Part shown: positions 30,012 through 57,600 of the stretch, in pieces
Layout of the letters: the number at the start of each line of letters is the position of its first letter
Numbering within the stretch: position 1 is the first letter of the stretch
Origin: Acetobacter persici JCM 25330
GTDB lineage: Bacteria > Pseudomonadota > Alphaproteobacteria > Acetobacterales > Acetobacteraceae
Direction of reading: 5' to 3'
Assembly (NCBI RefSeq): GCF_000613905.1
Contig: NZ_BAJW01000006.1
Coordinates: 1-64,000, forward strand
Length of the DNA: 64,000 bases
Made by a program: the position numbers and the translations under genes
Notes under the pieces: generated by a model
Databases searched by the model: none
What the model was told of the DNA's origin: nothing
What the model saw: the letters and a program-made list of their open reading frames with translations, nothing else

Positions 30012-30276
30012 ATTTCTCAGTCTCAGAAACGGCATCTTGGCATACAACCAGACTATAAGGGCCGTGTCAGACCGCGAAACGAACACACCTAGATCAGAAG
30101 AGGTCTTTTACGTATCATGTCGCTTAGGATCAGAGGGGCTTCCCGCTGTAGCGGCGCAGTCCGGTTGCGGCGAACTGTATGACATTACAGAGCGTGTAAG
30201 ATTAGCCGATAAAAAATGCTACTATTGTATGGTATGGTCTGAGACTGAGATATGAAATGTATGGAAGTCTGGCGGC
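30012..30276. promoter_or_regulatory. mocR upstream region with repeated TGTATGG motif
   Basis: This stretch precedes the MocR gene. It contains ATTGTATGG at 30224-30232 and AATGTATGG at 30256-30264, 32 bases apart. The first is extended to GTATGGTATGG, which includes TGGTAT, the complement of the ATACCA element known for GabR/PdxR-type MocR proteins. ATTGTATGG recurs upstream of the Nit1C operon. Autoregulation by MocR is the simplest reading. Confidence 0.45.
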
Positions 30277-31680: not shown

Positions 31681-31820
31681 CGCCGCAGCGCCTTCAGGGG
31701 AACGGAAGAGCTTTGATTCTATGGGAATAACCAGCGCATCAAAAAACAAAAAACGCCTCTGTTCACGAATGTGTGATTAAAAAATATCTGTAAAACAAGA
31801 GCTTATCACCACGAGATGGC

Positions 31821-31888
31821 ATTGTATGGATTTATGAATATTTTTGTATGCTTCTGTCTCTGATAAAAACCAGACGATTTTCTGGTTT
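31821..31888 (+). promoter_or_regulatory. Nit1C upstream control region: TTGTATG repeats and a hairpin
   Basis: In the 335-base gap between mocR and the first Nit1C gene, ATTGTATGG (31821-31829) matches the copy upstream of mocR. TTGTATG recurs at 31844-31850, 22 bases on, close to two helical turns. Just downstream, AAACCAGA (31867-31874) and TCTGGTTT (31881-31888) form a perfect 8-base-pair hairpin with a 6-base loop, either an operator or the 5' end of the leader. Confidence 0.45.
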
Positions 31889-31940
31889 GATTTAATTGTA
31901 CCCCATTAAAGAAACATACAATATTTTATCTTCTCCTGAT

Positions 31941-32006
31941 CCCGTGTCAGGTTTGCCCCGGCAACACGCTCAACCGGCCTCCTTACCGGAGACGGTTGCA
32001 CACGGG
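31941..32006 (+). promoter_or_regulatory. Structured leader able to sequester the Nit1C ribosome binding site
   Basis: CCCGTGT (31941-31947) is perfectly complementary to ACACGGG (32000-32006), and the GGG of that arm is part of the GGGAGA Shine-Dalgarno of the first gene. Inside, GCAAC (31961-31965) pairs with GTTGC (31995-31999), directly stacked on the outer stem, and CCGG (31974-31977) can pair with CCGG (31986-31989). An alternative hairpin TTGC-CCCG-GCAA (31953-31964) competes with the second stem. The layout resembles a translational riboswitch, but I could not match it to a known class. Confidence 0.5.
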
Positions 32007-32015
32007 AGAAATATT

Positions 32016-32498
32016 ATGCCGACAGTTGAACACACACCGCATAAAGATGGTGACTGCTTCGTCAATTATGAAAACAAGGTTTTCGAGGACGTCAAAGCCC
32101 AACCCGGCGAAAAAGCCCTTATCACTTTTCATACCGTCGCGAATGAAGGCTCAGTCGGGTTTGTTAATCTGCTTCAGGCCACACGCCTGATCCGCAAGGG
32201 TTTTGAAACTTCTGTCCTGCTCTATGGGCCGGGTGTGACCCTTGGTGTGCAGCGCGGCTTTCCGCGTCTGGGAGATGAAGCCTTTCCGGGCCATATGAAC
32301 TGCAACAAGCAGATTACAAAAATCCTTGAAGAAGGAGGAAAAGTCTATGCCTGCCGCTTCGCATTGCAGGCACTTTATGGCTACGGCGAACAGAATCTGA
32401 TCCCCGGCATTACCCCCATTAACCCGCAGGATGTGCTCGATATTATTCTGCTGGCCCGCCGTGACAACGCCTTTATCCTTAACACCTGGACTCTCTGA
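32016..32498 (+). CDS. MSMEG_0572/Sll0783-family nitrogen-starvation protein, first Nit1C gene
   Basis: The 160-residue protein begins [20 protein letters not shown] at ATG 32016, six bases after GGGAGA. It includes [40 protein letters not shown] and [20 protein letters not shown], recognisable as the MSMEG_0572/Sll0783 family found only in Nit1C-type clusters. The fold resembles DsrE-like small sulfur-relay proteins. Its biochemical role is unknown. It heads an eight-gene co-directional set whose start may be masked by the leader structure, so it may set expression of the whole cluster. Confidence 0.9.
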
Positions 32499-32521
32499 GA
32501 GCGGAAGGGAGGACCGTCGGC

Positions 32522-33495
32522 ATGTCACGTATTGTTCGCGCCGCAGCGATCCAGATCAGCCCTGTCCTTGGAGACGATGGTCTGGGCACAGCACGGAAAG
32601 TCTGTCAGGCCATTCGCGACGCCGCGGAAAAAGGCGTGACGCTGGCGGTCTTTCCTGAAACTTTTGTGCCGTATTATCCTATTTTTCCTTTATCCAGCCA
32701 GCCTTCCGGTTTGGGGGCGAGCATCTGGAACTCTATGAGCGCGCCGTTATCATCCCAGGCCCGGTAACTGATATGGTCGCGGAAGCCGCACGGGATACCG
32801 GCATGGTTGTCGTGCTGGGTGTGAATGAACGTGATTTTGGCACGCTCTACAACACGCAGATCATTTTTGATGCAACCGGCGAGATCCTGCTCAAGCGGCG
32901 GAAGATTACCCCAACCTATCATGAGCGGATGGTCTGGGGACAGGGCGATGGAGCCGGACTCAAGGTTGTTCAGAGTGCCGCTGGCCGCATCGGCGCACTG
33001 GCATGCTGGGAGCACTATAATCCGCTCGCCCGCTATGCGCTGATGGCCCAGCATGAGGAAATCCACTGCGCCCAGTTTCCCGGCTCACTGGTTGGTCAGA
33101 TTTTTGCTGATCAGATGGACGTTACAATCCGTCACCACGCGCTGGAATCCGGCTGCTTTGTCGTCAACGCCACGGGGTGGCTCACGGACGAGCAGATCAA
33201 GGAGATTGCGCGCGACCCGGCACTGGAAGGGCCTCTGCGCGGCGGGTGCTTTACCGCCATTGTCTCACCAGAGGGCAAGTTTCTGGCCCCGCCTCTGACG
33301 GAAGGGGAAGGGATGGTCATTGCCGATCTCGACTTCGCGCTGATCACCAAACGCAAACGGATGATGGACAGCGTGGGGCATTACGCCCGGCCGGAACTGC
33401 TCAGCCTGCTTCATGACCGGCGTCCAGCCCGCACTGTTCATTACGTGGGTGAAGAGGGTCCGTTCTCGGCCTCCAAAGAAGAGGTGGCACCATGA
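32522..33495 (+). CDS. Nit6803-type nitrilase of the Nit1C cluster (frameshifted)
   Basis: Restored length is about 324 residues. It starts [20 protein letters not shown] after GGAAGGGAGG. The catalytic triad is visible: Glu in [11 protein letters not shown], Lys in [20 protein letters not shown] and Cys in [18 protein letters not shown]. The frame breaks between 32680 and 32681; one extra T restores [20 protein letters not shown]. Nitrilases hydrolyse R-CN to acid and ammonia. In pseudomonads the Nit1C nitrilase has been linked to assimilation of cyanide or cyanide-derived nitriles as nitrogen source. Its stop overlaps the next start as ATGA. Confidence 0.9.
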
Positions 33496-34601
33496 CTGTT
33501 CCAACACTTGGTACACTTTCCGGACGCAAACTGGTGACTGATCTGCAATCTCTCGGCCTGCAGATTGGCGAGACAACAGGCGGCATCTCCCGCAAGGGCG
33601 GCGCAGGCCCTTCAGACCACAAGACAATCACCATTGCCGGCCAGACTGTTATGGTCCCGGTTTATACGTCCGGAGCGCGTCGCTCCCCTTTTCAGGCCAG
33701 TGCGCCGGACAAAAGCGGGGCCAGCACGTTGCTGCGGGACGGGCAAACGCTCGGGACGATTCATTTCCCGGCCGCCCCACGGTTTTATGGGCTTAAAACC
33801 GCCGATGGTATTCCATACTGGAAGATTGCTCTGCTGCATGGGCGGGATACTCTGGCGACCACGGTACACCAGACCTGTATCCGTTATGCAGACCGGCGCA
33901 CCTCCTGCCAGTTTTGCGCCATTGGTCAGTCTCTGGAAGCAGACCGGACAATTGCCTACAAAACACCGGCGCAACTCGCGGAAGTCGCTAAAGCCGCTGT
34001 CGAACTGGACGGCGTGCGCGATATGGTGCTGACAACCGGTACCCCGAACGTGATTGATCGCGGGGCTGCGGTTCTGGCTGAGTCCGCCCGCGCTATCCGC
34101 ACCGCTGTGGACCTGCCGCTTCAGGTCCAGTGTGAGCCGCCACGTGATCACGTCTGGTTCCAGCGGCTCCAGGACGCCGGTGCAGACAGTCTTGGCATGC
34201 ATCTTGAAGCCGCCACGCAGGCCGTGCGTGAGAAGATTATGCCCGGCAAAGCCACGGTAAGCGTTGATCGCTACATGGAGGCTTTTGCTGCTGCCGTACC
34301 GATCTTCGGGCGAGGGCAGGTGAATACCTACATTCTGGCCGGTCTGGGTGATACTGCCCAGGACATTCTGGGTCTGGGGGAACGACTGATCGCGCTCGGG
34401 GTCTACCCTTTTGTGGTGCCGTTTGTCCCTATTTCCGGAACGCCTCTGGAAAATCATGCCGCACCTTCGGCAGACTTCATGAAATCTGTTCTCGCTCCTC
34501 TCGGACGGATGCTGCGGGATGCAAATATGAAATCCACCGATATCCGGGCCGGGTGTGGCCGGTGCGGGGCATGCTCCTCTCTCTCGGCCTATGAACAATG
34601 A
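33492..34601 (+). CDS. MSMEG_0568-family radical SAM enzyme
   Basis: This 369-residue radical SAM protein has its cluster ligands spaced unusually: Cys129, Cys139 and Cys142 in [19 protein letters not shown], that is CX9CX2C instead of CX3CX2C. A second Cys set, Cys355/358/361 (CX2CX2C in [11 protein letters not shown]), at the C terminus may hold an auxiliary cluster. Barrel motifs include [39 protein letters not shown] and [10 protein letters not shown]. The reaction is unknown. It overlaps both neighbours by ATGA junctions, so stoichiometric expression with the nitrilase and GNAT is likely. Confidence 0.92.
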
Positions 34602-35161
34602 GCAGGGTGCTTGAAGGCGTGGAAGACCGGCCTTTTATCCCCACGGAATATGTTGTGCGTCTTGCCCGCACACCATGGGAACGGGCCGGTTATCACGCCC
34701 TCCGCCGTGAAGTCTTCTGCCATGAACAGAAGATTTTTGTAGAAGACGACCGGGATGGGATTGATGAGGATGCCATTCCCATTATTGCAGCCTGCTGTAT
34801 GGCGGGCATGCCTGACCGGATTGTCGGCGCAGTCCGTATCCATGAAGCGGAACCGGGCCTGTGGCGTGGCTCCCGTCTGGCCGTGCATGCCGAACATCGT
34901 AAACTCGGGCGGATCGGTGCTGAACTGATCCGCATGGCCGTCAGCACAGCCCATGGTCTGGGGGCGCAGCGCTTTCTGGCGCAGGTGCAGGAACAGAACG
35001 TGCTGTTCTTCCGGCGTCTGCACTGGAAAAGCCTTGGCGTCATAACGCTGCACGGCCTGCCGCATCATGACATGCAGGCAGATCTGGCACGGTATCCCGC
35101 ACATGGTCAGGACCAGACCTGGCTGCTCCGCCCGCAACCCCGCACCAGACAGGTGGCGTGA
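34598..35161 (+). CDS. MSMEG_0567/Sll0786-family GNAT acetyltransferase-like protein
   Basis: The 187-residue protein has the GNAT pattern: YHALRREVFCHEQKIFVEDD at the N side, GAVRIHEAEPGLWRGSRLAV as beta4, and EHRKLGRIGAELIRMAV as the acyl-CoA pyrophosphate loop. The C-terminal HHDMQADLARYP is characteristic of this cluster's subfamily. It presumably acylates an amine made or used in the pathway; the substrate is unknown. ATGA overlap with the radical SAM gene. Confidence 0.9.
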   Translation: MSRVLEGVEDRPFIPTEYVVRLARTPWERAGYHALRREVFCHEQKIFVEDDRDGIDEDAIPIIAACCMAGMPDRIVGAVRIHEAEPGLWRGSRLAVHAEHRKLGRIGAELIRMAVSTAHGLGAQRFLAQVQEQNVLFFRRLHWKSLGVITLHGLPHHDMQADLARYPAHGQDQTWLLRPQPRTRQVA

Positions 35162-36132
35162 TGGCAGGGAAATTAGCTCTGATGTTGCGCGCCCTTCAGC
35201 AGAGCCGCGCTCTTGCCGCCAAGCAGGATATTGCGGAAGCTGTCGCCATTCTCGGCCCGCAGGTAGGAAATGCCATTCGCCTGGGCGATGACTGCGCCGC
35301 AATTGAGGATGGGGACGGGTATCTCCTGCTGGCCAGCGAGGGCTTTCAGGACAGCTTCGTCCGCGCCATGCCGTGGTTTGCGGGCTATTGCGGCGTGATG
35401 GTCAATGTCAGCGATATTGCCGCCATGGGCGGACGACCTGTGGCCGTTGTCGATGCCCTGTGGAGCGAGACATCCGAGGCTGCCAGATCCATCCTGACTG
35501 GCCTGCATGACGGCGCACGCACCTATAACGTGCCGGTTGTGGGGGGGCATACCAATATGCGCAGCACCCATAACTCGCTTTCCGTCGCGGTTCTTGGACG
35601 TGCCCGCCATCTGCTGACCAGCTTTGACGCACAACCGGGTGAAGTGCTGATTGCCGCCATTGATCTGCGTGGCCGCTGGCATGACCCGCATCCGTTCTGG
35701 GATGCCAGTTCCACCCTGTGTGGCACGGACCGCGTGGCCCGGCTGCGGGGGGATCTGGATCTCCTGCCCGGCATAGCTGAAGACGGTCTAAGCCGTGCTG
35801 CAAAAGATATCAGCATGGCCGGACTGCTGGGGACAGCTCTGATGCTGGCTGAATGTTCGGGGGTGGGCATGACTATCTCGCTTGATGATATTCCGCGCCC
35901 GGAGAATGCACCTATGGAACGCTGGCTATCCGCCTTCCCCAGTTACGGCTACCTGCTGACAGCCCGACCGGAGGACGCCGAGGCGCTTATGGCCCGCTTC
36001 CGGTCCCGTGATATTGCGACCGCCGTCATTGGCCAGTGCACCGCCACCCAGCGTCTGGATGTGACATGGGAGGGTGAGACAGAACCCTTCTGGGATCTGG
36101 CCCGCACGCCGCTCATGGGGTGTGCGCCATGA
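35161..36132 (+). CDS. Sll0787-family AIR-synthase-like protein of Nit1C
   Basis: The protein of about 323 residues resembles PurM/ThiL/SelD-type ATP-binding enzymes: RLGDDCAAIEDGDGYLLLAS, VNVSDIAAMGGRPVAVVDAL, VVGGHTNMRSTHNSLSVAVL and KDISMAGLLGTALMLAECSG. Relatives phosphorylate or cyclise an amide or carboxylate with ATP. A GTG at 35158 and an ATG at 35161 are both possible starts; I use the ATG because it gives a TGATG junction with AGGTGG nearby. The specific reaction in the cluster is unknown. Confidence 0.88.
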   Translation: MAGKLALMLRALQQSRALAAKQDIAEAVAILGPQVGNAIRLGDDCAAIEDGDGYLLLASEGFQDSFVRAMPWFAGYCGVMVNVSDIAAMGGRPVAVVDALWSETSEAARSILTGLHDGARTYNVPVVGGHTNMRSTHNSLSVAVLGRARHLLTSFDAQPGEVLIAAIDLRGRWHDPHPFWDASSTLCGTDRVARLRGDLDLLPGIAEDGLSRAAKDISMAGLLGTALMLAECSGVGMTISLDDIPRPENAPMERWLSAFPSYGYLLTARPEDAEALMARFRSRDIATAVIGQCTATQRLDVTWEGETEPFWDLARTPLMGCAP

Positions 36133-37293
36133 AACTTTCCATTGGTATTCTGACACATTCGACCAACCCACGGGGCGGTGTCGTGCATGGTATGGCGCTG
36201 GCAGAAGCCCTGCACGATGCCGGGCATGAGGCCACACTCATTGCACCGGACGAGACAGGCGCAGGCTTTTTTCGCACACTACGCTGCGCTACCCGCTACA
36301 TCCCTGCGAGGCATGTGCCTGACCTGCCAACACTGGTGGAGCAGCGCATTGACGAGATAAAAAATGCGCTGCGGCATGAGAGATCTTTTGATGTACTGCA
36401 TGCTCAGGACCCGATCAGCGCCAATGCTCTGGCTGATTTGGCGGAAGAGGGACGGATACAGGGGTTTGCCCGCACGGTGCATCATCTGGACAGCTTTTCT
36501 CATCCGGGCGTTGCTGCCCGTCAGGCGCGTGCCTGACGGCTGCGACCAAACTTTTTACGGTCAGCCAGATCTGGAAAGAGACGCTGTTTGCTCAATACCG
36601 GCGTCATGCGCCTGTAGTGGGGAACGGCGTTGATCTGGCCCGCTTCTCTCCGGAAGAGGGACCGCAGGACCATGATCTCCGTGTTCGTTATGGGCTTCCG
36701 CAAAATGGCCGCCTCCTGCTCTCGGTCGGCGGGGTGGAGCCTCGTAAAAACACGATTGTCCTGCTTCAGGCTTTTGATGCATTGCGGAAGAATTATCCGG
36801 ACCTGCATCTTGTGATTGCAGGAGGCGCATCTTTACTTGATCATTCTGCGTACCGCCTCCTTTTTGATGAGCATGTGCAGAGGCAGGGTCTGGCAAATGC
36901 CGTGACTGTCACAGGCCCGGTTGCGGACGCGATATGCCCGCGTTCTATCGGCAGGCTGCGGTTCTGGCCTATCCCTCACAAACAGAAGGCTTTGGCCTGT
37001 GCCCGCTCGAGGCTCTGGCCTGCGGGACACCTGTGGTGGTTCCGGCCGCACCCCCTTTTACGGAGCATCTGCGGACACTTGAGGCGTTCTGGTGCCAGCC
37101 AGACCAGCCCGAGAGCCTTATCTGCACGCTGCATGACGCCTTAAATGCCCGGAATGCGGCCCGCTTTCAGGTCAGCGGGCCAGTTACAGCCTGTCGATTT
37201 GACTGGCAGAAGGTGGCCAGCAAACACCTGCCCGCATACCGGCGTCTGGCGGCATTGCAGCACGCTACTGCTCCAGCTTCAGGAGTTTTCTAA
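36129..37293 (+). CDS. MSMEG_0565-family GT4-like glycosyltransferase (two frameshifts)
   Basis: Restored length is about 388 residues. The N part is [20 protein letters not shown] and [15 protein letters not shown]. The middle has [14 protein letters not shown] and [20 protein letters not shown]. The end has [20 protein letters not shown] and [10 protein letters not shown], the GT-B donor-sugar region. Frames break near 36533 (one base missing in a C run) and near 36931 (one G missing before DMPAFYRQA). It probably attaches a sugar to the pathway intermediate, or to a carrier, with a nucleotide-sugar donor. ATGA overlap with the preceding gene; 2 bases to the next. Confidence 0.87.
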
Positions 37294-37295
37294 CT

Positions 37296-37583
37296 ATGCC
37301 CGAAATGATTTTTCGTGTGCGCTGGCCTGATGGACGGGAGACAGACTGTTATTCTCCGTCGCTGGTCATACGAGACTACTTCACGCCCGGTCAGGATTAT
37401 TCAGTCCGGGAGTTTCTTGCAAAAGCCGACACAGCCCTGACGGAAGCCAGTGAACGTGTGCGCGCCCGGTATGGCTTTCCGTGCAGCCGCGCTCTGGGCC
37501 AGCGTGACGCCATTCAGCAGGCGTCTGCGGCTTTCCTCAATCAATCCGGTGCGCAGGTGCGCATCCTGTCTTTCAGTCTCTGA
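37296..37583 (+). CDS. MSMEG_0570-family nitrogen-starvation protein
   Basis: The 95-residue protein MPEMIFRVRWPDGRETDCYS continues with SLVIRDYFTPGQDYSVREFL and ERVRARYGFPCSRALGQRDA. This is the small conserved protein found in Nit1C clusters. No catalytic motif is visible and the function is unknown; a partner or carrier role for a neighbouring enzyme is possible. It lies 2 bases after the glycosyltransferase gene and 16 before the flavoprotein. Confidence 0.88.
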   Translation: MPEMIFRVRWPDGRETDCYSPSLVIRDYFTPGQDYSVREFLAKADTALTEASERVRARYGFPCSRALGQRDAIQQASAAFLNQSGAQVRILSFSL

Positions 37584-37599
37584 AACGAAGAGAAATCTC

Positions 37600-38847
37600 A
37601 TGACACATACTGAGAAAACTATTCCCGTTATCATCGTGGGTGGCGGGCAGGCCGGTCTCTCAATGAGCTGGTATCTCTGCCGGGAGAAGGTAGAGCACAT
37701 CGTTTTTGAAGCAAAAACTGCATGCCATGCATGGGATGATGAACGCTGGGATAATTTCTGTCTGGTCACACCGAACTGGCAGTGCGCGCTCCCCGGCCAT
37801 CCCTACACAGGCAAAGATCCGCATGGCTTTATGGTGAAGCAGGAAATTATAGAATACGTCAAAGGCTTTGTTGACTCATTCAATCCTCCCCTGCGTGAGC
37901 ACACACCGGTAACCTCCATTGCGCGCCATGAAAATGGAGGATATCGCGTTGTGGCGGGGAATGACGTATGGCACGCGGAACATGTAGTGATCGCGTCAGG
38001 CGCATATCAGGATGCTGTGATTCCGGGTTATGCCAGCGCGATTGATGCCAGTATTTATCAGGTACACTCCCAGGATTACCGGAATGCGGCACAGCTTCCG
38101 GACGGTGCTGTGCTGGTGGTGGGCAGCGGCCAGTCCGGTGCGCAGATTGTCGAGGATCTGTTCCTTGAAAACCGCAAGGTTCATCTGTGCGTTGGCTCCG
38201 CGCCGCGCGTCTCGCGCTTCTATCGTGGCCGGGATGTGGTGGACTGGCTTGCGGACATGCAGTTTTATGACCTTACGGTGGAGAAACACCCCTTGCGAGA
38301 CGGCGCACGGGACAAGACCAACCATTACGTAACGGGCCGGAATGGCGGCCATGACCTTGATCTGCGTCTTTTTGCAAAAGAGGGCGTTGAGCTGCATGGC
38401 ACGCTGAAGACAATCCGTGACGACGTGGCGCAGTTTGCACCTGATCTGACGGAAAATCTTGATGATGCCGACAAAACCAATGCCGACATCAAAAAATCCA
38501 TTGATGCCTATATCACCCGTGAAAACATCAATGCTCCGGAGGAAGCCCCTTACGTGCCAGTCTGGCAGCCTGATGGCAGCAACACGCCGCTGGACCTGAA
38601 AGCCGCCGGTATTACGGCAATTATCTGGTGCATTGGGTTTCGGCCAGATTACCGCTGGATTGACGTGCCGGTCTTTAACGGGGCCAACAAGCCAGTCTGG
38701 CGCCGGGGCGTAACGGATGCGCCGGGGTTCTACTTCCTTGGGCTTCCCTGGCTCCACACGTGGGGGTCGGGGCGGTTCTCCGGTGTCTCACGAGATTCCG
38801 CGTGGCTGGCCAGCCAGATCACCGGCAAAGATGTGCCTGTAGCCTGA
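37600..38847 (+). CDS. MSMEG_0569-family flavin-dependent oxidoreductase
   Basis: The 415-residue protein has two Rossmann dinucleotide motifs: VIIVGGGQAGLSMSWYL for FAD near the N terminus and LVVGSGQSGAQIVEDL for NAD(P)H near residue 170. Conserved FMO-like pieces are WDNFCLVTPNWQCALPGHPY, VVIASGAYQDAVIPGYA and IIWCIGFRPDYRWI. It resembles flavin monooxygenases that hydroxylate nitrogen or insert oxygen. ATG 37600 was chosen over an upstream in-frame ATG that lies inside the previous gene. The substrate is unknown. Confidence 0.92.
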   Translation: MTHTEKTIPVIIVGGGQAGLSMSWYLCREKVEHIVFEAKTACHAWDDERWDNFCLVTPNWQCALPGHPYTGKDPHGFMVKQEIIEYVKGFVDSFNPPLREHTPVTSIARHENGGYRVVAGNDVWHAEHVVIASGAYQDAVIPGYASAIDASIYQVHSQDYRNAAQLPDGAVLVVGSGQSGAQIVEDLFLENRKVHLCVGSAPRVSRFYRGRDVVDWLADMQFYDLTVEKHPLRDGARDKTNHYVTGRNGGHDLDLRLFAKEGVELHGTLKTIRDDVAQFAPDLTENLDDADKTNADIKKSIDAYITRENINAPEEAPYVPVWQPDGSNTPLDLKAAGITAIIWCIGFRPDYRWIDVPVFNGANKPVWRRGVTDAPGFYFLGLPWLHTWGSGRFSGVSRDSAWLASQITGKDVPVA

Positions 38848-38862
38848 GCGAAGGACGCCGCC

Positions 38863-40680
38863 ATGCTGCCATGGACCACATATGACGCGATGTCTGCTGC
38901 GGCGACAGATCAGCCAGAAACATTCTGGCTGAAGGCCGCCCGGCGCATTACGTGGGAGCAGGCCCCGCTGAGTACATGCCGGGCACGGGCGGACGGCTGG
39001 CATGACTGGTTTCCTGATGCCACGCTCAACACCTGCCATAATGCGGTGGATCGGCATGTTGAGGCCGGGCGAGGGGAGCAGGCGGCCCTGATCTGGCATT
39101 CCTGCGCCACAAAGGAACGCCAGAGCGTCACCTACCGGATGCTTCAGAGCAGGGTAGCCGGATTTGCCGGTGGCCTGCGCTCACTCGGGGTGCAAAAAGG
39201 TGACCGGGTGCTGATCGCCATGCCGGGCATGATTGAGACAGTTGTCGCCATGCTGGCCTGCGCACGGATTGGTGCGGTCCATGTGGTCGTCTTTGCTGGT
39301 TATGCCGGGCCTGAACTGGCCCGACGGATTGAGGATGTGACGCCCAAGGTTGTCATTATCGCCAGTTGCAGCTTTCAGCGACAGACTGTGATCCCCTCGG
39401 CACCAATTCTGCATGAAGCCCTTGCTATTGCGGCGCACAGACCCCAGGCTTGCGTTATTCTCCAACGTGATGCCTGTCCGGCTGTGCTTCTGCCAATGCG
39501 CGATCATGATTTTCACGCGCTGGAACGCGCGGCACCTGTAGCCCCCGTCATGCTCAGGGCGCAGGACCCGCTTTATATTCTGCATACATCCGGAACGACC
39601 GGAAGGTCGAAAGGGATTGTCAGGGACAATGGCGGCCACGCCGTAGCGCTCGCCTTATCCATGGACCTGATTTATGGCTGCAAAGCCGGAGAGACTTTTT
39701 TCACCACATCAGACCTTGGCTGGGTGGTAGGTCACTCTTATGGCGTTTATGCCCCGCTGATCAGCGGCTGCACCAGCGTCATTGTGGAAGGCAGTGTGTC
39801 TGCCTCCGCGCTGCGCACCCTCTGCCATGACCATGATGTGAGGTGCCTGTTCACCACGCCGACGCAGATGCGGCTCATGCGGCAGGAAAGCCGCCATCTG
39901 TCATGCGCCAACCTGCCAGCACTGGCCCGCATCTTTGTGGCCGGAGAGTATGCGGACCCGACATTGCTGGACTGGGCACGGTCCCACTTCCAGAAACCCG
40001 TTGTAAACCACTGGTGGCAGACTGAAACCGGGTGGAGCATTACCGCGCATTTCTTTGGCTTGCCGGAGCAGGAGCCAGCCTCATTCATGAACGAAATCGG
40101 GCGGCCAGCACCGGGGTTTCGCCCGGCGATTGTGCGGTCACGCCCCGATGAACCCTGTGGAGAAATTGTTTTGTCCCTGCCGCTGCCGCCCGGTTGTCTG
40201 GCCGGGATGTGGAAAGAAGGAGCTGTCCGTGCGCCTGCAAGCTGCCTTGATGAAACAGGCCAGTATTACCGGACTTTTGACGAAGGGATGATTGACGATG
40301 ACCACGTCATTCATATGCGTGGGCGGTCTGATGATGTTATTAAGGTTGCGGGGCGACGGATTTCAGGCGTTCAGATTGAAAAAATTATTTCTCGTAATGC
40401 TGGCATCCATAGTTGTGCCGTGGTTGCTGTTCCCGATGACCTCCGAGGAGAACGGCCTGTTGCTTATGTCGTGCCTGACACTGGCTTCAACCAGCTACCC
40501 TCCGTAGAAGCTGTTATCAAACAAATCCATCAGGCTCTTGGTCGATGGGTAGGACTTAGGGAGGTGCGTTTTGTAGAGCGGTTACCTACTACAGTATCAG
40601 GAAAAATTATCAGAAAATCCTTGAATACTTGTCCCGATATAAAAAGAGAAAATGCCGCGATAATGCAGGATGTTATATAG
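38863..40680 (+). CDS. Acyl-CoA synthetase (AMP-forming, ACS/PrpE-like) appended to the Nit1C operon
   Basis: The 605-residue adenylate-forming enzyme has the P-loop YILHTSGTTGRSKGIVRDNG, FFTTSDLGWVVGHSYGVYAP, VNHWWQTETGWSITAHFFGL, hinge MRGRSDDVIKVAGRRISGVQ and the C-terminal catalytic-Lys motif PTTVSGKIIRKSL. This matches the acetyl/propionyl-CoA synthetase branch. It lies 15 bases after the flavoprotein gene on the same strand. The eight core Nit1C families do not include it, so it may add a CoA-linked step or salvage the carboxylic acid left by the nitrilase. The latter is an inference. Confidence 0.9.
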   Translation: MLPWTTYDAMSAAATDQPETFWLKAARRITWEQAPLSTCRARADGWHDWFPDATLNTCHNAVDRHVEAGRGEQAALIWHSCATKERQSVTYRMLQSRVAGFAGGLRSLGVQKGDRVLIAMPGMIETVVAMLACARIGAVHVVVFAGYAGPELARRIEDVTPKVVIIASCSFQRQTVIPSAPILHEALAIAAHRPQACVILQRDACPAVLLPMRDHDFHALERAAPVAPVMLRAQDPLYILHTSGTTGRSKGIVRDNGGHAVALALSMDLIYGCKAGETFFTTSDLGWVVGHSYGVYAPLISGCTSVIVEGSVSASALRTLCHDHDVRCLFTTPTQMRLMRQESRHLSCANLPALARIFVAGEYADPTLLDWARSHFQKPVVNHWWQTETGWSITAHFFGLPEQEPASFMNEIGRPAPGFRPAIVRSRPDEPCGEIVLSLPLPPGCLAGMWKEGAVRAPASCLDETGQYYRTFDEGMIDDDHVIHMRGRSDDVIKVAGRRISGVQIEKIISRNAGIHSCAVVAVPDDLRGERPVAYVVPDTGFNQLPSVEAVIKQIHQALGRWVGLREVRFVERLPTTVSGKIIRKSLNTCPDIKRENAAIMQDVI

Positions 40681-40745
40681 CCTGAGCAACATCCGTAACA
40701 TACGCAGTGTTCACCGTGAAAATTACCCAAGCATATCACTCAGGC
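40680..40745 (+). terminator. Long-range inverted repeat at the end of the Nit1C operon
   Basis: GCCTGAG (40680-40686), starting at the stop codon of the acyl-CoA synthetase gene, is perfectly complementary to CTCAGGC (40739-40745) across 52 bases. It lacks a U-tract, so intrinsic termination is uncertain. It could be a transcript-end structure. Confidence 0.3.
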
Positions 40746-40832
40746 TGACCCAGACAGTTCTTTGAGTTTTTTGAAGTCCTTCGCCGGGAAACTTGCCCAC
40801 TCTCGACGGAGACGGGAGTTTTTCCTAAAATA

Positions 40833-40863
40833 ATATGAGCGTAGTGATGAAGAGGGCTCATAT
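40833..40863 (+). promoter_or_regulatory. Perfect inverted repeat abutting the lysR start codon
   Basis: ATATGAGC (40833-40840) and GCTCATAT (40856-40863) form a perfect 8-base inverted repeat whose right arm ends at the ATG. The Shine-Dalgarno AGAGGG (40851-40856) lies in the loop and first arm base. It may be an autoregulatory LysR operator, an RNA hairpin limiting translation, or both. Confidence 0.45.
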
Positions 40864-41775
40864 ATGTCACGCGAGAACCTGAATGACCTGCTCGCGTTTC
40901 TGGCGGTTGCGCGCGAGCGCAGCTTTACACGGGCGGCCGCAAAGCTGGGGGTCTCACAATCTGCGCTGAGCCATACAATCCGGCTGCTGGAGGAACGCCT
41001 TGGCCTGCGTTTGCTGACACGCACCACACGTAGTGTCACGCCCACGAATGCTGGAGACTACCTCATTCGCAATATTGGTCCGCATTTTGACCAGATTGAA
41101 ACCCAGATCGCGGCTCTGGGGCAGTTACGGGGGCAGCCGAGCGGGATGATCCGCCTGACCGCCCCTGATGATGTGATTGCCTATATTCTTCGCCCAAGGA
41201 TTGAAGCGTTCCTTAAAAAATATCCGGATGTGAAAATTGAGATCAGCGCGGACCTCAAACTCGTGGATATTGCCGCCGAGCGCTTTGATGCCGGGATCAG
41301 GCTCGGGGAGCAGGTGACCAAGGAAATGACCTCGATACCACTCACGCCAGATATCCGCTTTGTCGTGGTTGGTACAAAATCGTATTTCAGGAAAAACCCC
41401 AAGCCAAAGGTACCGTCTGACCTGCTGAAGCATCGGTGCATCACCATGCGCCTGCCTACTTATGGCGGCATTTATGCGTGGGAATTTGAAAAAAATGGTC
41501 GGGATCTTAAAGTTCGTGTCGATGGACCTCTGATCTTCAACAGTATTTTCCCGGCAAGGGATGCCTGTCTGGATGGGCTGGGGCTTGCGCACATGCCGGA
41601 AATAGTTGCGGAAAAATTTATTGCCGATGGACGACTGGTCAAAGTGCTTGAAGACTGGTGTCCATACTGGACCGGATATCACCTTTGCTTTCCGCATCAT
41701 CACCAGAGTACGATGCCTTTTGCGCTGTTTGTAGAAGAAATGCGGCAAACCCCGCTGCATGCTCCGCATTCATGA
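40864..41775 (+). CDS. LysR-family regulator (CrgA/PtrR-like branch)
   Basis: The 303-residue protein has an N-terminal helix-turn-helix (LLAFLAVARERSFTRAAAKL, GVSQSALSHTIRLLEERLG) and an effector domain with MIRLTAPDDVIAYILRPRIE, AAERFDAGIRLGE and FVVVGTKSYFRKNPKP. It precedes an exported methyltransferase, an SDR and the cupin on the same strand, and probably regulates them. A perfect inverted repeat abuts its start. Confidence 0.93.
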   Translation: MSRENLNDLLAFLAVARERSFTRAAAKLGVSQSALSHTIRLLEERLGLRLLTRTTRSVTPTNAGDYLIRNIGPHFDQIETQIAALGQLRGQPSGMIRLTAPDDVIAYILRPRIEAFLKKYPDVKIEISADLKLVDIAAERFDAGIRLGEQVTKEMTSIPLTPDIRFVVVGTKSYFRKNPKPKVPSDLLKHRCITMRLPTYGGIYAWEFEKNGRDLKVRVDGPLIFNSIFPARDACLDGLGLAHMPEIVAEKFIADGRLVKVLEDWCPYWTGYHLCFPHHHQSTMPFALFVEEMRQTPLHAPHS

Positions 41776-41884
41776 GTAAAATGGAAGAGCGTATGCAGCC
41801 TGAAGGGGCTAATCATGGACGCGCTGAGACCCTACATAATGAGCCTGTGTGATTTTTGCGCAGAAGCTGAGTGAAAGAAACATC

Positions 41885-42666
41885 ATGAAAGCGGTTTATC
41901 CTCTCGCCTGTGCGATTTCCATGATTGTATCAGGAAACGCCCTCGCGGCCCCGACGCTGGAACAGTCGGTTCATGCGACAACGCGTGATGCGCGCTTTGT
42001 CGCCCGTGACCAGATCCGGCACCCTCTGGAGGAATTGCAGTTCTTTGGCCTGCGTCCGGACGCAAATGTTATCGAGATCTGGCCCGGTGGAGGCTACTGG
42101 ACGCAGATCCTCGCCCCGTATCTACATGAAAAAGGGGCTTACACTCTGGCCCTCGGACGGGAAGATCAGGCCGGTTCCGCGTTTAGCAAAATGATGGAAG
42201 CGCATCCTGAGCTTAAAGGCACCTTTAAGACCACACAGTTTGACGGAGAGCATCTCGATTTTGCGCCACCTGCCAGTGCTGATTTCGTTCTGACCTTCCG
42301 CAACCTCCACAACTGGATGGAAGCAGGGAACGCGCCGCAGATGCTTGCGGCCATTCACCGGGTTCTGAAAACCGGCGGGATCTTTGGTGTTGAAGATCAC
42401 CGCGGCCACACCAATGCTCCGCAGGCCCGCATGCGGAGGACGGATACGTCCGTCAGCCTTATGCCATTGCCCTGATTGAAAAGGCGGGGTTCAGGCTGGT
42501 TGGCTCCTCGGAAATCAATGCCAACCCGCGTGATACTGCTAGCTGGCCCAAAGGGGTCTGGACCCTGCCGCCGACCTTCGCCCTCGGGGATAAAGATCGC
42601 GCCAAATATGCTGCGATCGGTGAGGGGGATAATTTTGTGCTCAAATTCGAAAAAATTGATCGGTAA
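41885..42666 (+). CDS. Exported class I SAM-dependent methyltransferase-like protein (frameshifted)
   Basis: Restored length is about 260 residues. The signal peptide is MKAVYPLACAISMIVSGNAL ending ALAAP. Then come RDQIRHPLEELQFFGLRPDA, the SAM-binding VIEIWPGGGYWTQILAPYL, and FVLTFRNLHNWMEAG. The frame breaks near 42434; one more base joins it to YVRQPYAIALIEKAGFRLVG and the end KFEKIDR. This matches the COG4798 group of predicted methyltransferases that carry export signals. Why a SAM enzyme would be periplasmic is unclear, and its substrate is unknown. It lies 18 bases before the SDR gene. Confidence 0.85.
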
Positions 42667-42684
42667 GCAAGAAGGAGACACACC

Positions 42685-43428
42685 ATGAGTAACATTGCCA
42701 ATAAGATCGTCGTTATCACAGGGGCAAGCAGCGGATTGGGGGCAGAAGCAGCCCGGCATCTTGCAGAACTGGGCGCGACAGTTGTGCTGGGTGCCCGCCG
42801 CGAAGAGCGGATTAAAACCCTTGCAGACGCTATTACCGCCAAAGGTGGCAAAGCACTGGCGGTTGAAACGGATGTGACAGACCGGGCGTCTGTTCAGGCA
42901 CTTGTGGATACGGCGGTTAAGACTTATGGCCGGATTGACGTCCTGCTGAACAATGCGGGGGTCATGCCGCTTTCTCCGCTTGAAAAACTGCGGGTTGATG
43001 AATGGGACCTGATGATTGATGTGAACATCAAGGGGGTTCTGTATGGTATTGCCGCCGCTCTTCCTCATATGAAGGAACAGAAAAGCGGCCAGATTATTAA
43101 TGTTTCTTCTGTGGCCGGGCATCGTGTTCTTGAAAACAGCGCTGTTTATTCCGCCACAAAATTTGCTGTTCGGGCGCTCTCAGAAGGGCTGCGGGCAGAA
43201 GTAAAGCCTTATAACCTGCGCACGACCGTGATTTCACCGGGCGCGGTTCAGTCTGAACTGCTCAACAGCATCCATGATGAAGCAACAGCGGAACAACTCC
43301 GGAGTGTTGTGCCCGGTTTTGCGATCGGGGCGGACTCTTTTGCCCGGTGTGTTGCGTTTGCAATCAGCCAGCCGGAAGACGTTGATATCAACGAAATTCT
43401 TTTCCGGCCTACACGTCAGACCGTCTGA
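42685..43428 (+). CDS. Short-chain dehydrogenase/reductase (SDR)
   Basis: The 247-residue classical SDR has the nucleotide motif [39 protein letters not shown], the catalytic Ser region [10 protein letters not shown] and the YSATK catalytic Tyr/Lys. ARRE after the second strand suggests NADP(H). Such enzymes interconvert alcohols with ketones or aldehydes. It is co-directional with the methyltransferase; a strong hairpin follows its stop. Confidence 0.94.
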
Positions 43429-43459
43429 GTTTTTCAGGCTCGACGTTCTTAAAAGTAAC

Positions 43460-43489
43460 GGGTTATGCCGTCTCGAACAGGCATAACCC
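43460..43489. terminator. Perfect 10-base-pair stem-loop after the SDR gene
   Basis: GGGTTATGCC (43460-43469) and GGCATAACCC (43480-43489) form a 10-base-pair stem with a 10-base loop, 31 bases after the SDR stop. There is only a weak T tract on the plus side (ACCCATTTC) and a TTTT on the minus side. It most likely terminates the methyltransferase-SDR transcript. Confidence 0.65.
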
Positions 43490-43863
43490 ACCCATTTCAT
43501 GCTCCCAAAAATCCCTTGCACAGCCTAAGCAACGCAAGAACGGCGCACTCTGCCGGTTTCTCTGGTTCAGGGCCATTCACCTATCCCAAGCCTCAAAAAA
43601 GTAATTCATGAGAATTGCCCATGATGATGCTCGTATTATTGGGTCTAGTCCCGCACCCCCTTGTTTCTTATGGTTGAGAACGAAGCCGGTCATGCGGCAC
43701 TGAAAACAGCAAACTTCGTTCAGAAAACAGTCAGTTACCGAAAAATTTTGTCTAGCTATGTTCCTGAAATGGTAAATGACCAGCTATGACTATAAAATAT
43801 CGTAATAATGAGACGGAATGGACACAACTTTTTACATGGGTCCCGACACAACCTCGGCCGTAA
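43490..43863. other. Non-coding stretch, nothing recognised
   Basis: About 370 bases with no credible frame, repeat or RNA gene. It leads into a truncated transporter remnant and may be a scar of deletion or rearrangement. Confidence 0.4.
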
Positions 43864-44100
43864 ACACGCAGCCCGGATCATGGGGCGCGGTGCTGGCCAG
43901 AACGCATCCCGCGGGATGAGGAAGCGGGCGGAGGCCTCATGGTCGCGGTCGTCCAGCTTGCCATCACGCTTGGCGCAACCTGTGGCGGTATTCTGTTCGA
44001 CGACATAGGATATCAGGCCACGTTTACCGCGAGTGCCTGTGTGCTCGGCATCGCGGCACTTCTGGCTTTTGTGACACAGCGGTTAACCCGCCAGCCATGA
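43864..44100 (+). pseudogene. C-terminal remnant of an MFS transporter
   Basis: The frame ending at the TGA 44098-44100 encodes IPRDEEAGGGLMVAVVQLAI and then TLGATCGGILFDDIGYQATF, followed by one more helix and TRQP. This is the last two-helix portion of an NepI/AraJ-like MFS drug or sugar efflux protein. The first ten helices are absent and a stop at 43861 closes the frame upstream. Unlike the single-base breaks elsewhere, this is a true truncation. Confidence 0.7.
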
Positions 44101-44106
44101 CACTTT

Positions 44107-44129
44107 TGGATATTCAGAGAGACTATCCA
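44107..44129 (+). promoter_or_regulatory. Inverted repeat upstream of the cupin gene
   Basis: TGGATA (44107-44112) and TATCCA (44124-44129) form a perfect inverted repeat with an 11-base gap, 44 bases before the cupin start. It is a candidate operator, possibly for the LysR at 40864. AGGAG precedes the ATG by eight bases. Confidence 0.4.
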
Positions 44130-44172
44130 GACTAACACGACATTTCTGGACGATATAACAGGAGTATTTATC

Positions 44173-44568
44173 ATGGATATTAAACGCGTTGGGTCACAAC
44201 CCTCTGCTATCGGTCCGTCTGACTGGTTTACCGGGACCATGCGGATTGACCCTTTGTTCAATCCGCCGGAGCCTGCACAGGTCACCACGGCGCTTGTCAC
44301 GTTTGAACCGGGTGCCCGGACAGCCTGGCATACACATCCACTTGGACAAACCCTTATTGTGACGGCTGGATGCGGATGGGTGCAACGTGAGGGCGGCCCT
44401 GTTCAGGAAATCCATCCCGGTGATACGGTCTGGTTTGCGCCGGGGGAAAAGCACTGGCATGGCGCGACAGCAACTACAGCCATGAGCCATATTGCCATTC
44501 AGGAAAAACTGAATGGATCTCCGGTTGACTGGCTGGAACAGGTGTCTGACGCGCAGTATGGCGGGTAA
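44173..44568 (+). CDS. Cupin hydroxynitrile lyase-like protein (GtHNL/AcHNL type)
   Basis: The 131-residue single-domain cupin starts [20 protein letters not shown] and has [20 protein letters not shown] and [15 protein letters not shown]. These match the manganese cupin hydroxynitrile lyases of Granulicella and Acidobacterium closely. The metal ligands fall at the same numbers (His53, His55, Gln59, His94), and the active-site positions Ala40, Val42 and Gln110 also match. Those enzymes cleave (R)-mandelonitrile to benzaldehyde and HCN. Many uncharacterised cupins of this family exist beside SDR and decarboxylase genes, so the physiological substrate may differ. The gene lies about 3.5 kb downstream of a Nit1C cyanide-assimilation-type cluster. 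Confidence 0.85.
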
Positions 44569-44593
44569 AACAGTGCAGTCTGCATGCTAACCG

Positions 44594-44645
44594 GGCAAGA
44601 CGTGCAAAAAAGGGAAGGGAGCATCCTGTGGTGCTCCTGCTTGCC
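44594..44645 (+). terminator. Two-stem hairpin after the cupin gene
   Basis: GGAGCA (44618-44623) pairs with TGCTCC (44632-44637), enclosed by GGCAAG (44594-44599) with CTTGCC (44640-44645). No U-tract follows. It probably ends the cupin transcript. Confidence 0.4.
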
Positions 44646-44743
44646 GTGCAGGCGCTGGCCTTGATAAAAATTTAAGTGTTCATTATGTCTGCCAAAGAAG
44701 ACAGGAAAGCTGTGTCAATTTGAGAATATAAAAGGTTTTTTAA

Positions 44744-45652
44744 TTGGGTCTTCGTAAAGATATCTGGCGCGTTGGCATTTCCAACGTGCCTCTGGATGCC
44801 ATTATTGAAGACGGCTGCGTAAGAGCAGACCCTGTTGCGTGGCTTCCTGCCCTGAAACCTTTCCAGTTTATGGCTGATCCATTCGGATTTTGGAAAGATG
44901 ATATTCTTTATGTCTTTGTTGAGACATTCGATTATCGTACCAGACACGGCATTATAGAAGTCTTTCTCTATGACACAGGTTTCAGATTACTGGAGCAGCG
45001 TGTTGCGCTTTCTGAGCCATGGCATCTGTCTTACCCCTTTGTTTTTGAAGCGGACGGCGCAATCTGGATGCTGCCGGAAGCCTATCACTCAGGAAAGCTG
45101 ACCCTTTATCGTGCGCAGTCTTTCCCGGATGTGTGGGAGCCTGCTTGCGTTATTGATCTCGGCCCAGATGTGGCTGTGGATGCAACGCCCTTTTACCATG
45201 ATGGTTTATGGTGGCTTTTTTATACCCCGGCCAGCAAGCCGCCAAAACCTGTCGGGGAATTGCATCTGGCCTTTGCAGAGCAACTGCACGGCCCATGGAC
45301 ACGGCACCCCGGTAATCCTGTGCGCCTCCATTCCGCCAGCACCCGGCCCGGCGGAACACCGCGGGTTCTGAAGGGGCAGGTCATGCTGCCGGTGCAAGAC
45401 TGCTCATGGACTTATGGCGGCGCTATAAGGCCCTTATGGTTTGAGAAACTTACGCCTGAGCATGTTGTGACGCACGCGGGCTCCCGGATCAAAATTCCGG
45501 AAGGTTTTTCTCCCTATACGGAAGGCATGCATACGCTTTCCGCCGCAGGGGCGGTGACGGTGTTTGATGTGAAACGGACAGAACTTTCCGCACACGGACT
45601 GTCTATTGAACTCATGCGCGAAACAAGAAAAATTCTGCAAAAACTATGCTGA
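44744..45652 (+). CDS. Five-bladed-propeller protein resembling glucosamine inositolphosphorylceramide transferase N-domain
   Basis: The 302-residue protein uses a TTG start at 44744, with AAAGG about nine bases upstream. It has repeated propeller blades: KPFQFMADPFGFWKDDILYV, LSYPFVFEADGAIWMLPEAY, DATPFYHDGLWWLFYTP and VMLPVQDCSWTYGGAIRPLW. Similar domains sit in bacterial surface-glycan loci and in plant GIPC transferases. Its activity is unknown. It overlaps the next glycosyltransferase by 7 bases, so the three genes form a small glycan-assembly unit. Confidence 0.75.
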   Translation: MGLRKDIWRVGISNVPLDAIIEDGCVRADPVAWLPALKPFQFMADPFGFWKDDILYVFVETFDYRTRHGIIEVFLYDTGFRLLEQRVALSEPWHLSYPFVFEADGAIWMLPEAYHSGKLTLYRAQSFPDVWEPACVIDLGPDVAVDATPFYHDGLWWLFYTPASKPPKPVGELHLAFAEQLHGPWTRHPGNPVRLHSASTRPGGTPRVLKGQVMLPVQDCSWTYGGAIRPLWFEKLTPEHVVTHAGSRIKIPEGFSPYTEGMHTLSAAGAVTVFDVKRTELSAHGLSIELMRETRKILQKLC

Positions 45653-54613: not shown

Positions 54614-57600
54614 TTAGTGAGCATCACTAACCCGTGCCTTATCATCGCGGCTGAGCGCAAGCGCTGCTTCAAACCGAGAGCGTGTCGCCGCACCCATGCG
54701 GGCCATGCCGCAGGCCTTGCGCATGGTGGCAATCAGCTCTTCATCCGGCAGACCGGTAGGAAGTAATGTCTTTGCCAGACTGACCAGCATGGTGAGTGGC
54801 ACGGTTGCGGGGTCCAGCGCCTCGCCCGTTGCAGGCGCCTTAAAAGCCAGCGGTTCTTCCGGAGATAGTGTCTCCGGCCAGATAAAAGTGCCGACCTCTT
54901 CCTGAGTGCGGGCGAACGAGGAAGGAATAAGCCCCTGAAGACGGTCCCGGATATCACGCCCGGCCCGCGCAAAACCATGCTGGCGAGAAAGAGTTTGCAC
55001 AAGCACGTCCTCCCGCACCGGGCCAAGCCTGTTCACTGCCTGCCCGATGAGCTGAAGGAGGACAGGCGTATAGGTCTCTTTAAAAAACAGCGTCTGATCA
55101 GGGACTATGTCCATCTGGCCTTCAGACGCAGGCTGTTCTGTAAACGACAGTCGTCCGTTTGATTGTGGCATCAAATAATCCGGGCCGCACGCATAGGGCT
55201 GCGGTGCGTCCGGGGATACCTTCCGATCAGAGCCGGATGTGTAATGAGAGGCTTCCTGACTGCCTGTTTCTGGCGGAGATAGCTCTCTCCCGGACGCCTC
55301 AGACCTGTCGCCCTCAGCTTCGGCAGATAATTGCGGCATCTGAGCACGTTGCTCTGCTTCCTGTAAGGCGCGCTCTTCCCGTGCTCTGTCCAGCAGATCC
55401 TGCAAGGTCTTGTCGAGCCTGTCACACTCACGCTGCGCATTGGTCCACCAGTCGGTTGACCAGATTCTGAGGATCGTCCAGCCCAGATTTTCCAGAACTG
55501 CCTGCCGCAGCCTGTCACGGTCACGCGCTGTAGCGCTCCGATGATAGGTTGCCCCGTCACATTCTATCCCGGCAAGGAATGTCGTCGGGCGGTCCGGATC
55601 GACAACCCCCAGATCCACGCGGAAGCCGGAAACGCCAATCTGCGGCACAACCTGCCACCCTTTCAGGCGCAGCAGGGCAGCAACTTCTTTTTCAAAATCA
55701 CTGTCAAAGTCCCCAACGGAGCCTTCATGCAGCCCAGCGAGGGCTGTGGCGCCATGTTCTGCAAAAGTCAGGAACTTCCGCAAATCATGTACGCCGAGCG
55801 CCTGTGTGCGTGCAATGTCAATCTGATCTCCGTGCAGAGAGCCGAACACAATCAGGCGTTCCCGGGCGCGGGTAATCGCCACGTTCAGGCGGCGCTCTCC
55901 CCCATCCCGGTTCAGCGGACCAAAATTGAGGGAAATTTTGCCTGCCTGATCGGTCCGTAGGTCAGGGAGAACAGCATGATATCCCGTTCTTCGCCCTGCA
56001 CGTTTTCCAGATTACGGATCAGCACCGGTTCAGCCGCCTCATCCGAGAAGAACCGCTCCAAGGCCGGATCTTCGCTCCGGGCATTATCCATCAGGTCCGT
56101 AATCAGGGTTTGCTGGTCACTATTAAACGTCACGATACCCAGTGAGCGCTCAGAGCCATCCTGCAACAGGCGTAAAGCCTCCGCCACAACGGCGCGGGCT
56201 TCAACCGGGTTGGTGCGTCCGGCTCCCCGCATATACACGCCGTCCGGCACAAAGCGGAAAGAAACGGCATGATCTCTGGTAACAGGCGAGGGGAAGGTAA
56301 TCAGTTGCCCGCCATAGTAAGCCTGATTGGAAAAGGCGATCAGACTTTCATGCCGGCTGCGGTAATGCCAGGACAGATAGACCGGCGGCACACCAGCCCC
56401 CAGGCACTCATCCAGAATGGATTCCAGATCACATGTCTGGGTTTCAATCAGTTCATCAGTGTCGGATGTGGTCCGGTTAAAAAAATCTGTTGGCGGGAGC
56501 TGTTTGGGGTCTCCCACCACAATAACCTGCCTGCCACGCCCGATGGCGCCGATGGCATCCCATGTTGGAATTTGTGAGGCCTCATCAAAAATCACAAGGT
56601 CAAAGGCCGTGGCATCTGCTGGCAGATACTGCGCGACGGACAGCGGGCTCATCATCAGGCAAGGCGTTAAACGGCGCAGCGCCGTTGGCATTTTTTCCGC
56701 CAGTTGCCGGATGGGCAGATGCTGCATTTTCTTCGCCAGTTCCCGCGTCAGCACCTTATATTCCGGGTCTGTCTGGCGGGTTCTGGCATCCGGGATCTGC
56801 CCGGCAAGCTTTGCGCGAATAAGCCGGACGGACATGTCCATCAACTTACGGTCTAGCGCCCGAAACCGTTCAATCCGTTTTTCATGCGTCGCGGCGACAA
56901 AGCTGCGGAGCAGAGGGGACTGGTCAATGGCAAAGCGCACCCACCAGCGGGCATAATTGGCTTCAAAAACCCACGGAACATCCTGAGCCGCCACCAGTCC
57001 CTGTTCAATAGCCGTAATCAGGGGTGTCAGGCCCTGCCTTACCGCGTTCTGGCAGGCCTGTTTCCAAGAACACCAGTCCCGTAGATCACGCGCGGACTGC
57101 TTCCAGGCCTCAAGCGTTTCCATCATGGCATCGAGCCATGTGGCATGGCTGTTTTCGACAAGGGCCAGCGCGTCCGATCCACTGAGCGCGCCAAGGGCGT
57201 CCAGACTACCCAGACAGTCTGCCAGCGCCGTCTGGAATACCGTCAGCGCGTGATGAACCGGTCCACCGGAGCGCAGCAGATCCATGCCGTCACGCAGCAG
57301 CGCGTTCAGATGCGTTCGTGCTGCCAGCAGCCCGGCGGTATCCCCCGCACAGGCAGCCAGAGCGGTGCGTGTTTCAGCCCCCCATCTGTGCATGGCTTCA
57401 ATTGTGCTGAAGTCCGTTTCCAGCCCCTGCCAGACAGCGCCGACAACGGTCTGATGCTGCGCGTCTCTGAGCTGTTTTTCCAGCGTCTGTATTTCAGCAA
57501 GACGGATCAGGTCATCTTCACAGGCTTCCGGCACCGCAGCGGTATGAGTTTCCAGCTTTTTCCGCAGGGCTTTCTGGATTTTAGACCGGGCAAAAATCCA

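Follow-up and report, generated by a model that had tools for sequence, protein, structure and literature searches.

We consider it probable, with moderate confidence, that a small cupin encoded in the window (the whole 64,000-nucleotide stretch of Acetobacter persici DNA that was analysed) is a metal cupin of the GtHNL type and the last gene of a self-contained LysR-methyltransferase-SDR-MFS-cupin cassette, and that it does not form one pathway with the Nit1C cluster upstream. The evidence points to a cupin that belongs to its own regulated gene cassette, of which it is the last gene. Counting for this reading are a second copy of the cassette in the same genome without Nit1C, the same cassette in another genome of the genus (G651), the LysR and SDR genes that stand beside cupins in the genus, the fall-off of aldo-keto reductase (AKR) genes with distance from cupin relatives in other phyla, and a co-occurrence of cupin and Nit1C within the family that is at chance.

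Identity of the cupin

The cupin gene (44173-44568, + strand) is intact and encodes 131 AA. In a profile search, its ORF scored 204.1 bits against the NCBIfam equivalog NF049940, '(R)-mandelonitrile lyase', for which the cut-off is 140, and its PDB match was 4bif_A (E 9e-69), with 99 of 129 residues identical (77%); the closest solved relatives were 4bif, 8oz8, and 4uxa. At the site the protein has Ala40, Val42, His53, His55, Gln59, His94, and Gln110, together with His96 and His106, and we take His53, His55, Gln59, and His94 to be the metal ligands, as in the initial annotation. The 4bif entry names its molecule only as 'cupin 2 conserved barrel domain protein', which we assume to be GtHNL, the hydroxynitrile lyase (HNL) of Granulicella tundricola. 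This assignment fits 4uxa, whose His40, Thr42, and His110 are those of a GtHNL variant that PMC8097096 names; a paper cited there gives the metal of GtHNL in its title as Mn. The initial annotation had held that the cupin keeps all residues defining the hydroxynitrile lyases GtHNL and AcHNL, and this is borne out by the alignment to 4bif_A and by the NF049940 score. At the level of sequence, the cupin is thus confirmed as a genuine relative of a bacterial enzyme able to release cyanide from cyanohydrins and, judged by the same likeness, is a further member of a known enzyme family.

Conservation of the site was counted in the best 80 of 592 relative-encoding places in named genomes, which were 72-83% identical and came from many phyla. 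The four metal ligands were present in all 80 and the full set of seven residues in 71, while in the family to which the window belongs all seven were kept in 30/30 of the best cupin places. Gln110 is replaced by Thr110 in the cupins of G669, G663, G665, G649, G174, and G217, and by Ala110 in those of G655 and G662. Because 71 of the 80 relatives, in many phyla, keep all seven residues, these are a mark of the family and do not alone separate a lyase from a protein of other function, and we did not accept them as proving that the protein is a lyase. At L004:5395-5967, another member of the cupin family begins with a signal-peptide-like N-terminus and lies 4.2 kb from the first cupin of that locus; part of the cupin family may be exported.

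One reading of this likeness is that the window protein is a true hydroxynitrile lyase that clears plant- or fruit-derived cyanohydrins and has no tie to Nit1C. It would suit the 99 of 129 residues shared with 4bif_A and the common site, and acetic acid bacteria live on fruit, but the family extends through Acidobacteriota, Bacteroidota, Verrucomicrobiota, and rhizobia, for which cyanogenic plants are no evident common factor. Wild-type GtHNL is reportedly much weaker than the engineered variant with aromatic aldehydes. The enzyme described as good with aromatic aldehydes in the excerpt of PMC8097096 is the engineered A40H/V42T/Q110H form, whereas the window protein has the wild-type residues, and PMC5413884 stated in 2017 that what hydroxynitrile lyases do in bacteria had yet to be explored. 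We regard this reading as unlikely.

The gene cassette and the assembly

All genes considered in this part of the window, including the cupin and Nit1C, lie on the + strand. The Nit1C gene set, identified with NCBIfam models, is present in order at 31992-38847, and the order matches that of relatives. It is adjoined upstream by a MocR-type regulator (30277-31680; Pfam GntR and Aminotran_1_2) and comprises an MSMEG_0572 family protein (31992-32498; TIGR04044, 271 bits), a Nit6803-type nitrilase with a broken frame (32522-33495; TIGR04048 matches its 3' part at 439.7 bits, below the cut-off of 502.6), an MSMEG_0568 radical SAM protein (33492-34601; TIGR04043, 583 bits), an MSMEG_0567 GNAT protein (34598-35161; TIGR04045), an sll0787 AIR-synthase-like protein (35158-36132; TIGR04049), an MSMEG_0565 glycosyltransferase (36120-37293; TIGR04047 in two pieces, each below the cut-off), an MSMEG_0570 family protein (37296-37583; TIGR04042), and an MSMEG_0569 flavoprotein (37600-38847, on the ORF 37450-38847; TIGR04046, 665 bits). 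An AMP-binding acyl-CoA synthetase gene (38863-40680; Pfam AMP-binding) follows, as it follows Nit1C in relatives, and from its end to the start of the cupin is 3.5 kb. A terminator-like hairpin at 40799-40819, between the AMP-binding gene and the LysR gene, is a weak signal, since 4.2 sites of this kind would be expected and 8 were counted.

Beyond this hairpin the cassette begins with a LysR regulator (40864-41775; Pfam LysR_substrate and HTH_1), whose DNA is 78.7% identical to the G651 copy and 79.4% to a second copy in the window's own genome. It is followed by a methyltransferase (41849-42684; Pfam Methyltransf_11) with what reads by eye as a signal-peptide-like start and an ORF that ends early at 42475, and by a short-chain dehydrogenase (SDR; 42685-43428; Pfam adh_short), which has 90.7% AA identity to the second own copy. 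The interval 43429-44172 reads by eye as a short piece like the start of an MFS protein and the last ~60 residues of one; this transporter remnant (43870-44101, frames by eye) lacks the middle of the gene, and in G651 an intact MFS_1 protein of 400 AA occupies the matching position of the cassette. The initial annotation had placed a LysR, a methyltransferase, an SDR, and a transporter remnant between Nit1C and the cupin, and the Pfam matches and our reading of the frames agree with it; its further description of a full Nit1C cluster about 3.5 kb upstream holds for the gene set, the order, and the distance, but the nitrilase is short of one base and the glycosyltransferase changes frame twice.

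These breaks are best considered together with the quality of the assembly. Alignment to G637 places the missing base of the nitrilase near 32676, in or beside a T run, and alignment to the G651 copy places one missing base of the cassette methyltransferase near 42425. The rpoB gene of the same genome (G000 contig C222:12108-16227) is also in three pieces in three different frames, so errors of the assembly probably account for the frameshift in the nitrilase, for the two frame changes in the glycosyltransferase, and for the single-base break in the methyltransferase. On the strength of this one checked gene we did not conclude that the nitrilase is a pseudogene, and single-base frameshifts in this assembly are not to be read as gene loss, given the split rpoB. 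The missing middle of the MFS gene is larger than the single-base breaks and may be real. Elsewhere in the window (54614-60732), a DUF4011/helicase/MTES_1575 nuclease protein is spread over two ORFs, which probably belong to a single frameshifted gene. Of the PADLOC models, the candidate defence model PDC-S37 matches both parts, at 897 and 252 bits, and Hhe gives a weaker match.

The cassette recurs apart from Nit1C. A second cupin in the window's own genome, 88% identical to the first, lies on an 8.5-kb contig (C123) that carries LysR, methyltransferase, SDR, MFS, and cupin genes in the window's order, and no match to Nit1C was found on this contig. In G651 the same cassette has for neighbours what looks by eye like a urease operon, and Nit1C is on another contig. 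Of the 48 other genomes of the genus, 11 gave a cupin match. A LysR gene was directly divergent from the cupin in eight of these 11; G651 has its cupin in the cassette led by LysR, and only a distant LysR (37% and 28% identical, respectively) was present in G662 and G637, 3.9 kb from the cupin. G637 has kept an MFS gene beside the cupin, and in G647, G658, and G661 an SDR match starts 36-37 bases after the cupin match.

HNL-type cupins mostly lie away from Nit1C

The surroundings of cupin relatives in other phyla were examined in the 80 named loci, whose flanks add up to 1,349 kb and reach at least 9.5 kb on both sides in 47 of the 80. An initial clustering of neighbours was replaced, its largest cluster being the cupin itself and others looking like shadow ORFs; the queries eventually used were picked from clusters in these same 80 loci, with one representative of each named by Pfam. 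Because the query genes came from the same loci, we treated the fall-off with distance, and not the count, as evidence. AKR genes were near 33 of the 80 cupins, and their density fell from 7.1 matches per 100 kb within 2 kb of the cupin (22 matches) to 0.4 at 8-10 kb (one match). LysR genes were near 16 of the 80 and Zn-alcohol dehydrogenase genes near 14, while SDR genes were near 25, without fall-off with distance. Nit1C was found in none of the 80 flanks, of which 47 had the full reach given above; among the genomes of the first 50 of the 80 relatives, six carried it, always outside the flank examined, which in L013 and L037 was short on one side. HNL-type cupins thus mostly lie away from Nit1C.

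The initial annotation had proposed that cupin and Nit1C together form a cyanohydrin-to-ammonia route, with HCN released from cyanohydrins by the cupin and then taken up by Nit1C as a source of nitrogen, and had suggested a survey of their co-occurrence. Most results of that survey gave the route no support. Within the family, 137 of 299 genomes had a cupin over the cut-off, 33 had Nit1C, and 15 had both (Fisher p=1.0 with the own genome included, p=0.85 without it). Within the genus, again without the own genome, Nit1C was present in 10 of 11 cupin genomes and in 26 of 37 others (p=0.25), and in a second family the cupin was present in 106 of 229 genomes, Nit1C in 27, and both in 17 (p=0.10). 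Pooling the two families with the own genome out gave 31 genomes with both against 27.1 expected (Mantel-Haenszel odds ratio 1.35, chi-square 0.88). No co-occurrence beyond chance was therefore found among the 299 genomes of the family or the 48 other genomes of the genus. A class sample, own genome excluded, did show an excess: 4 of 8 genomes with Nit1C had the cupin, compared with 25 of the 328 that lacked Nit1C (p=0.0025, with no correction for kinship or genome size). This is the strongest co-occurrence evidence for a link. Genome size is a likely confounder, as all eight Nit1C genomes were of at least 4.0 Mb, and in the four genomes with both, cupin and Nit1C lay on one contig in two, at 0.8 and 1.2 Mb apart, and on different contigs in the other two.

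Proximity also speaks for the route. The two loci of the window are 3.5 kb apart on the same strand, and of the ten other genomes of the genus that carry both, G637 and G669 have them within 5 kb. In G637 an MFS-cupin pair lies upstream of MocR on the opposite strand at a gap of 4962 bases; in G669 the order is Nit1C, AMP-binding gene, SDR, LysR, cupin, with a gap of 2144 bases. The remaining eight have cupin and Nit1C on different contigs of draft assemblies, in which the two may yet be close. Among the 12 other genomes of the family sample with a listed cupin place (G220 and G281 left out), the gap was 7.8 kb in G217, a genome of another genus than the window's, and 36 kb in G174. In the second family, none of the 17 genomes with both had them near each other, five having them on one contig at least 0.5 Mb apart and twelve on different contigs. 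When 74 cupins, 71 of them different, were placed on a tree, the four that lie near Nit1C did not form one clade, with four changes forced by the starred branches and an unsure place for the G217 cupin, which argues that the placement arose more than once.

Under uniform placement, two or more of ten within 5 kb would have P=5e-4. We set this null aside because Nit1C is plasmid-borne in several acetic acid bacteria and because SDR genes lie as near: as a control, 32 other SDR genes of the genus were taken outside the cupin loci and the own genome, and two of them had Nit1C within 6.6 kb, against 2 of 10 for the cupin (Fisher p=0.24; the control is small, has several genes per genome, and uses an SDR query that is itself a cassette gene). 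The 15 kb at 30200-45200 of the window matched 31 plasmid records, 17 from Acetobacter and 8 from Komagataeibacter, and among the 15 of these 31 matches that were listed, the Nit1C part alone was matched. On one annotated Acetobacter plasmid, Nit1C is flanked on either side by SDR and LysR genes, with MFS genes upstream, and no cupin was found near it; in some genomes of the genus Nit1C lies instead on contigs of 2.6-3.6 Mb. In our reading, the repeated proximity reflects accessory genes crowded together, with a slight chance left for a genuine tie, and the closeness of the window cupin to Nit1C is most likely incidental, an explanation that accounts less easily for the two near-Nit1C genomes of the genus.

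Two further observations concern the surroundings of Nit1C itself. At L232:18645-21100, L227:11259-12689, and L208:17232-18662, Nit1C and the AMP-binding gene are followed by a cytochrome bd-type ubiquinol oxidase (CydA 95-99% identical); one of these loci is on a plasmid of Komagataeibacter saccharivorans and the others are in two genomes of the genus to which the window belongs. No CydA-type match was found in the window or the other loci examined; if this predicted oxidase is cyanide-resistant, its place by Nit1C would fit a role of Nit1C in cyanide metabolism. In G281 (L149:2918-6225), about 1.5 kb of DNA, which may be an insertion element, breaks up the AMP-binding gene that follows Nit1C.

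Taken as a whole, the record does not support the route by which the lyase would free HCN for Nit1C. Proximity in the window, in G637, G669, and G217, its apparently repeated origin, and the class sample speak for it, but co-occurrence in the family is at chance, none of the 80 relatives has Nit1C in its flanks, the second cassette of the same genome is without Nit1C, SDR genes lie as near, and the cupins of G669 and G217 have Thr110 in place of Gln110. The published work on NitC, in the text available from PMC11049912, also describes a substrate cyanohydrin formed chemically from oxaloacetate and, in a Pseudomonas genome scan, no gene generally tied to nit1C. We consider this lyase-first route very unlikely. 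The reverse use, in which the cupin would make a cyanohydrin from HCN and an aldehyde and the Nit1C nitrilase would hydrolyse the product to ammonia and an acid, draws on the same proximity, on the description of the NitC substrate as a cyanohydrin (PMC11049912, same text), and on the fact that hydroxynitrile lyases run in the synthesis direction too (excerpts of PMC8097096 and PMC5413884). It meets the same lack of co-occurrence in the family, and the G. tundricola cupin HNL did not add cyanide to ketones according to the retrieved text of PMC5413884; the partner here, oxaloacetate, is a ketone that this text does not name as tested. We judge reverse use to be highly improbable. The ketone limit of the G. 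tundricola enzyme, the NitC substrate, and the absence of a nit1C-tied gene weigh against both directions of the route. We likewise assign a low probability to the broader proposal that in Acetobacter the cupin is repeatedly placed by Nit1C and interconverts HCN and cyanohydrins for the nitrilase, which would be a first physiological role of bacterial cupin HNLs, that of obtaining nitrogen from cyanogenic plants. If a link to Nit1C were true, it would provide a direct enzymatic entry from plant cyanohydrins into bacterial nitrogen.

Proposed role and comparison with known systems

For the cassette reading that we prefer, a mechanism can be suggested from the gene content. The LysR regulator would sense a small carbonyl or xenobiotic compound and switch the cassette on. 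The cupin, with a divalent metal held by His53, His55, Gln59, and His94, would bind an alpha-hydroxy-carbonyl, aldehyde, or cyanohydrin-like substrate and make or break a bond at the carbon next to the carbonyl or nitrile, and the SDR would reduce or oxidise the carbonyl partner, a part that an AKR or a Zn-alcohol dehydrogenase may take elsewhere, in many bacteria. The cassette would lie downstream of Nit1C because both occupy accessory DNA. Hydroxynitrile lyase activity of the cupin is predicted and expected in vitro, probably as a side or minor activity.

Several findings count against this reading. LysR, SDR, and AKR genes are common, and the SDR genes near cupin relatives do not thin out with distance; the window cassette has no AKR, which is the strongest neighbour elsewhere. 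With its transporter lost and its methyltransferase frame broken, this copy may not be a working unit. The cupins of G637 and G669 within 5 kb of Nit1C and the class result (p=0.0025) also count on this side. The neighbourhood data point the search for the role of bacterial HNLs to LysR-controlled cassettes with carbonyl reductases and not to cyanide assimilation. In the open-access library searched, we found no work joining 'hydroxynitrile lyase' and 'nit1C', and none joining 'mandelonitrile lyase', 'cupin', and 'aldo-keto reductase'; under looser terms one paper with both nit1C and hydroxynitrile, PMC5333837, came up.

Compared with known systems, the Nit1C cluster of the window has the same order as those on Acetobacter and Komagataeibacter plasmids (for example NZ_CP042810.1 and NZ_CP023038.1), namely MocR, 0572, nitrilase, radical SAM, GNAT, AIR synthase, glycosyltransferase, 0570, flavoprotein, and AMP-binding gene. 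Unlike in the window, no cupin lies within the 8-9 kb on either side of Nit1C in these two records, and one of the two has a cytochrome bd-type oxidase downstream of Nit1C instead. For the cupin, the nearest known system is presumably GtHNL (PDB entry 4bif), and the likeness in sequence comprises 99 of 129 identical residues and the same metal-ligand and active-site residues. Similarly, the window cupin reaches 204 bits against the NF049940 cut-off of 140, and nothing in its site sets it apart from that family.
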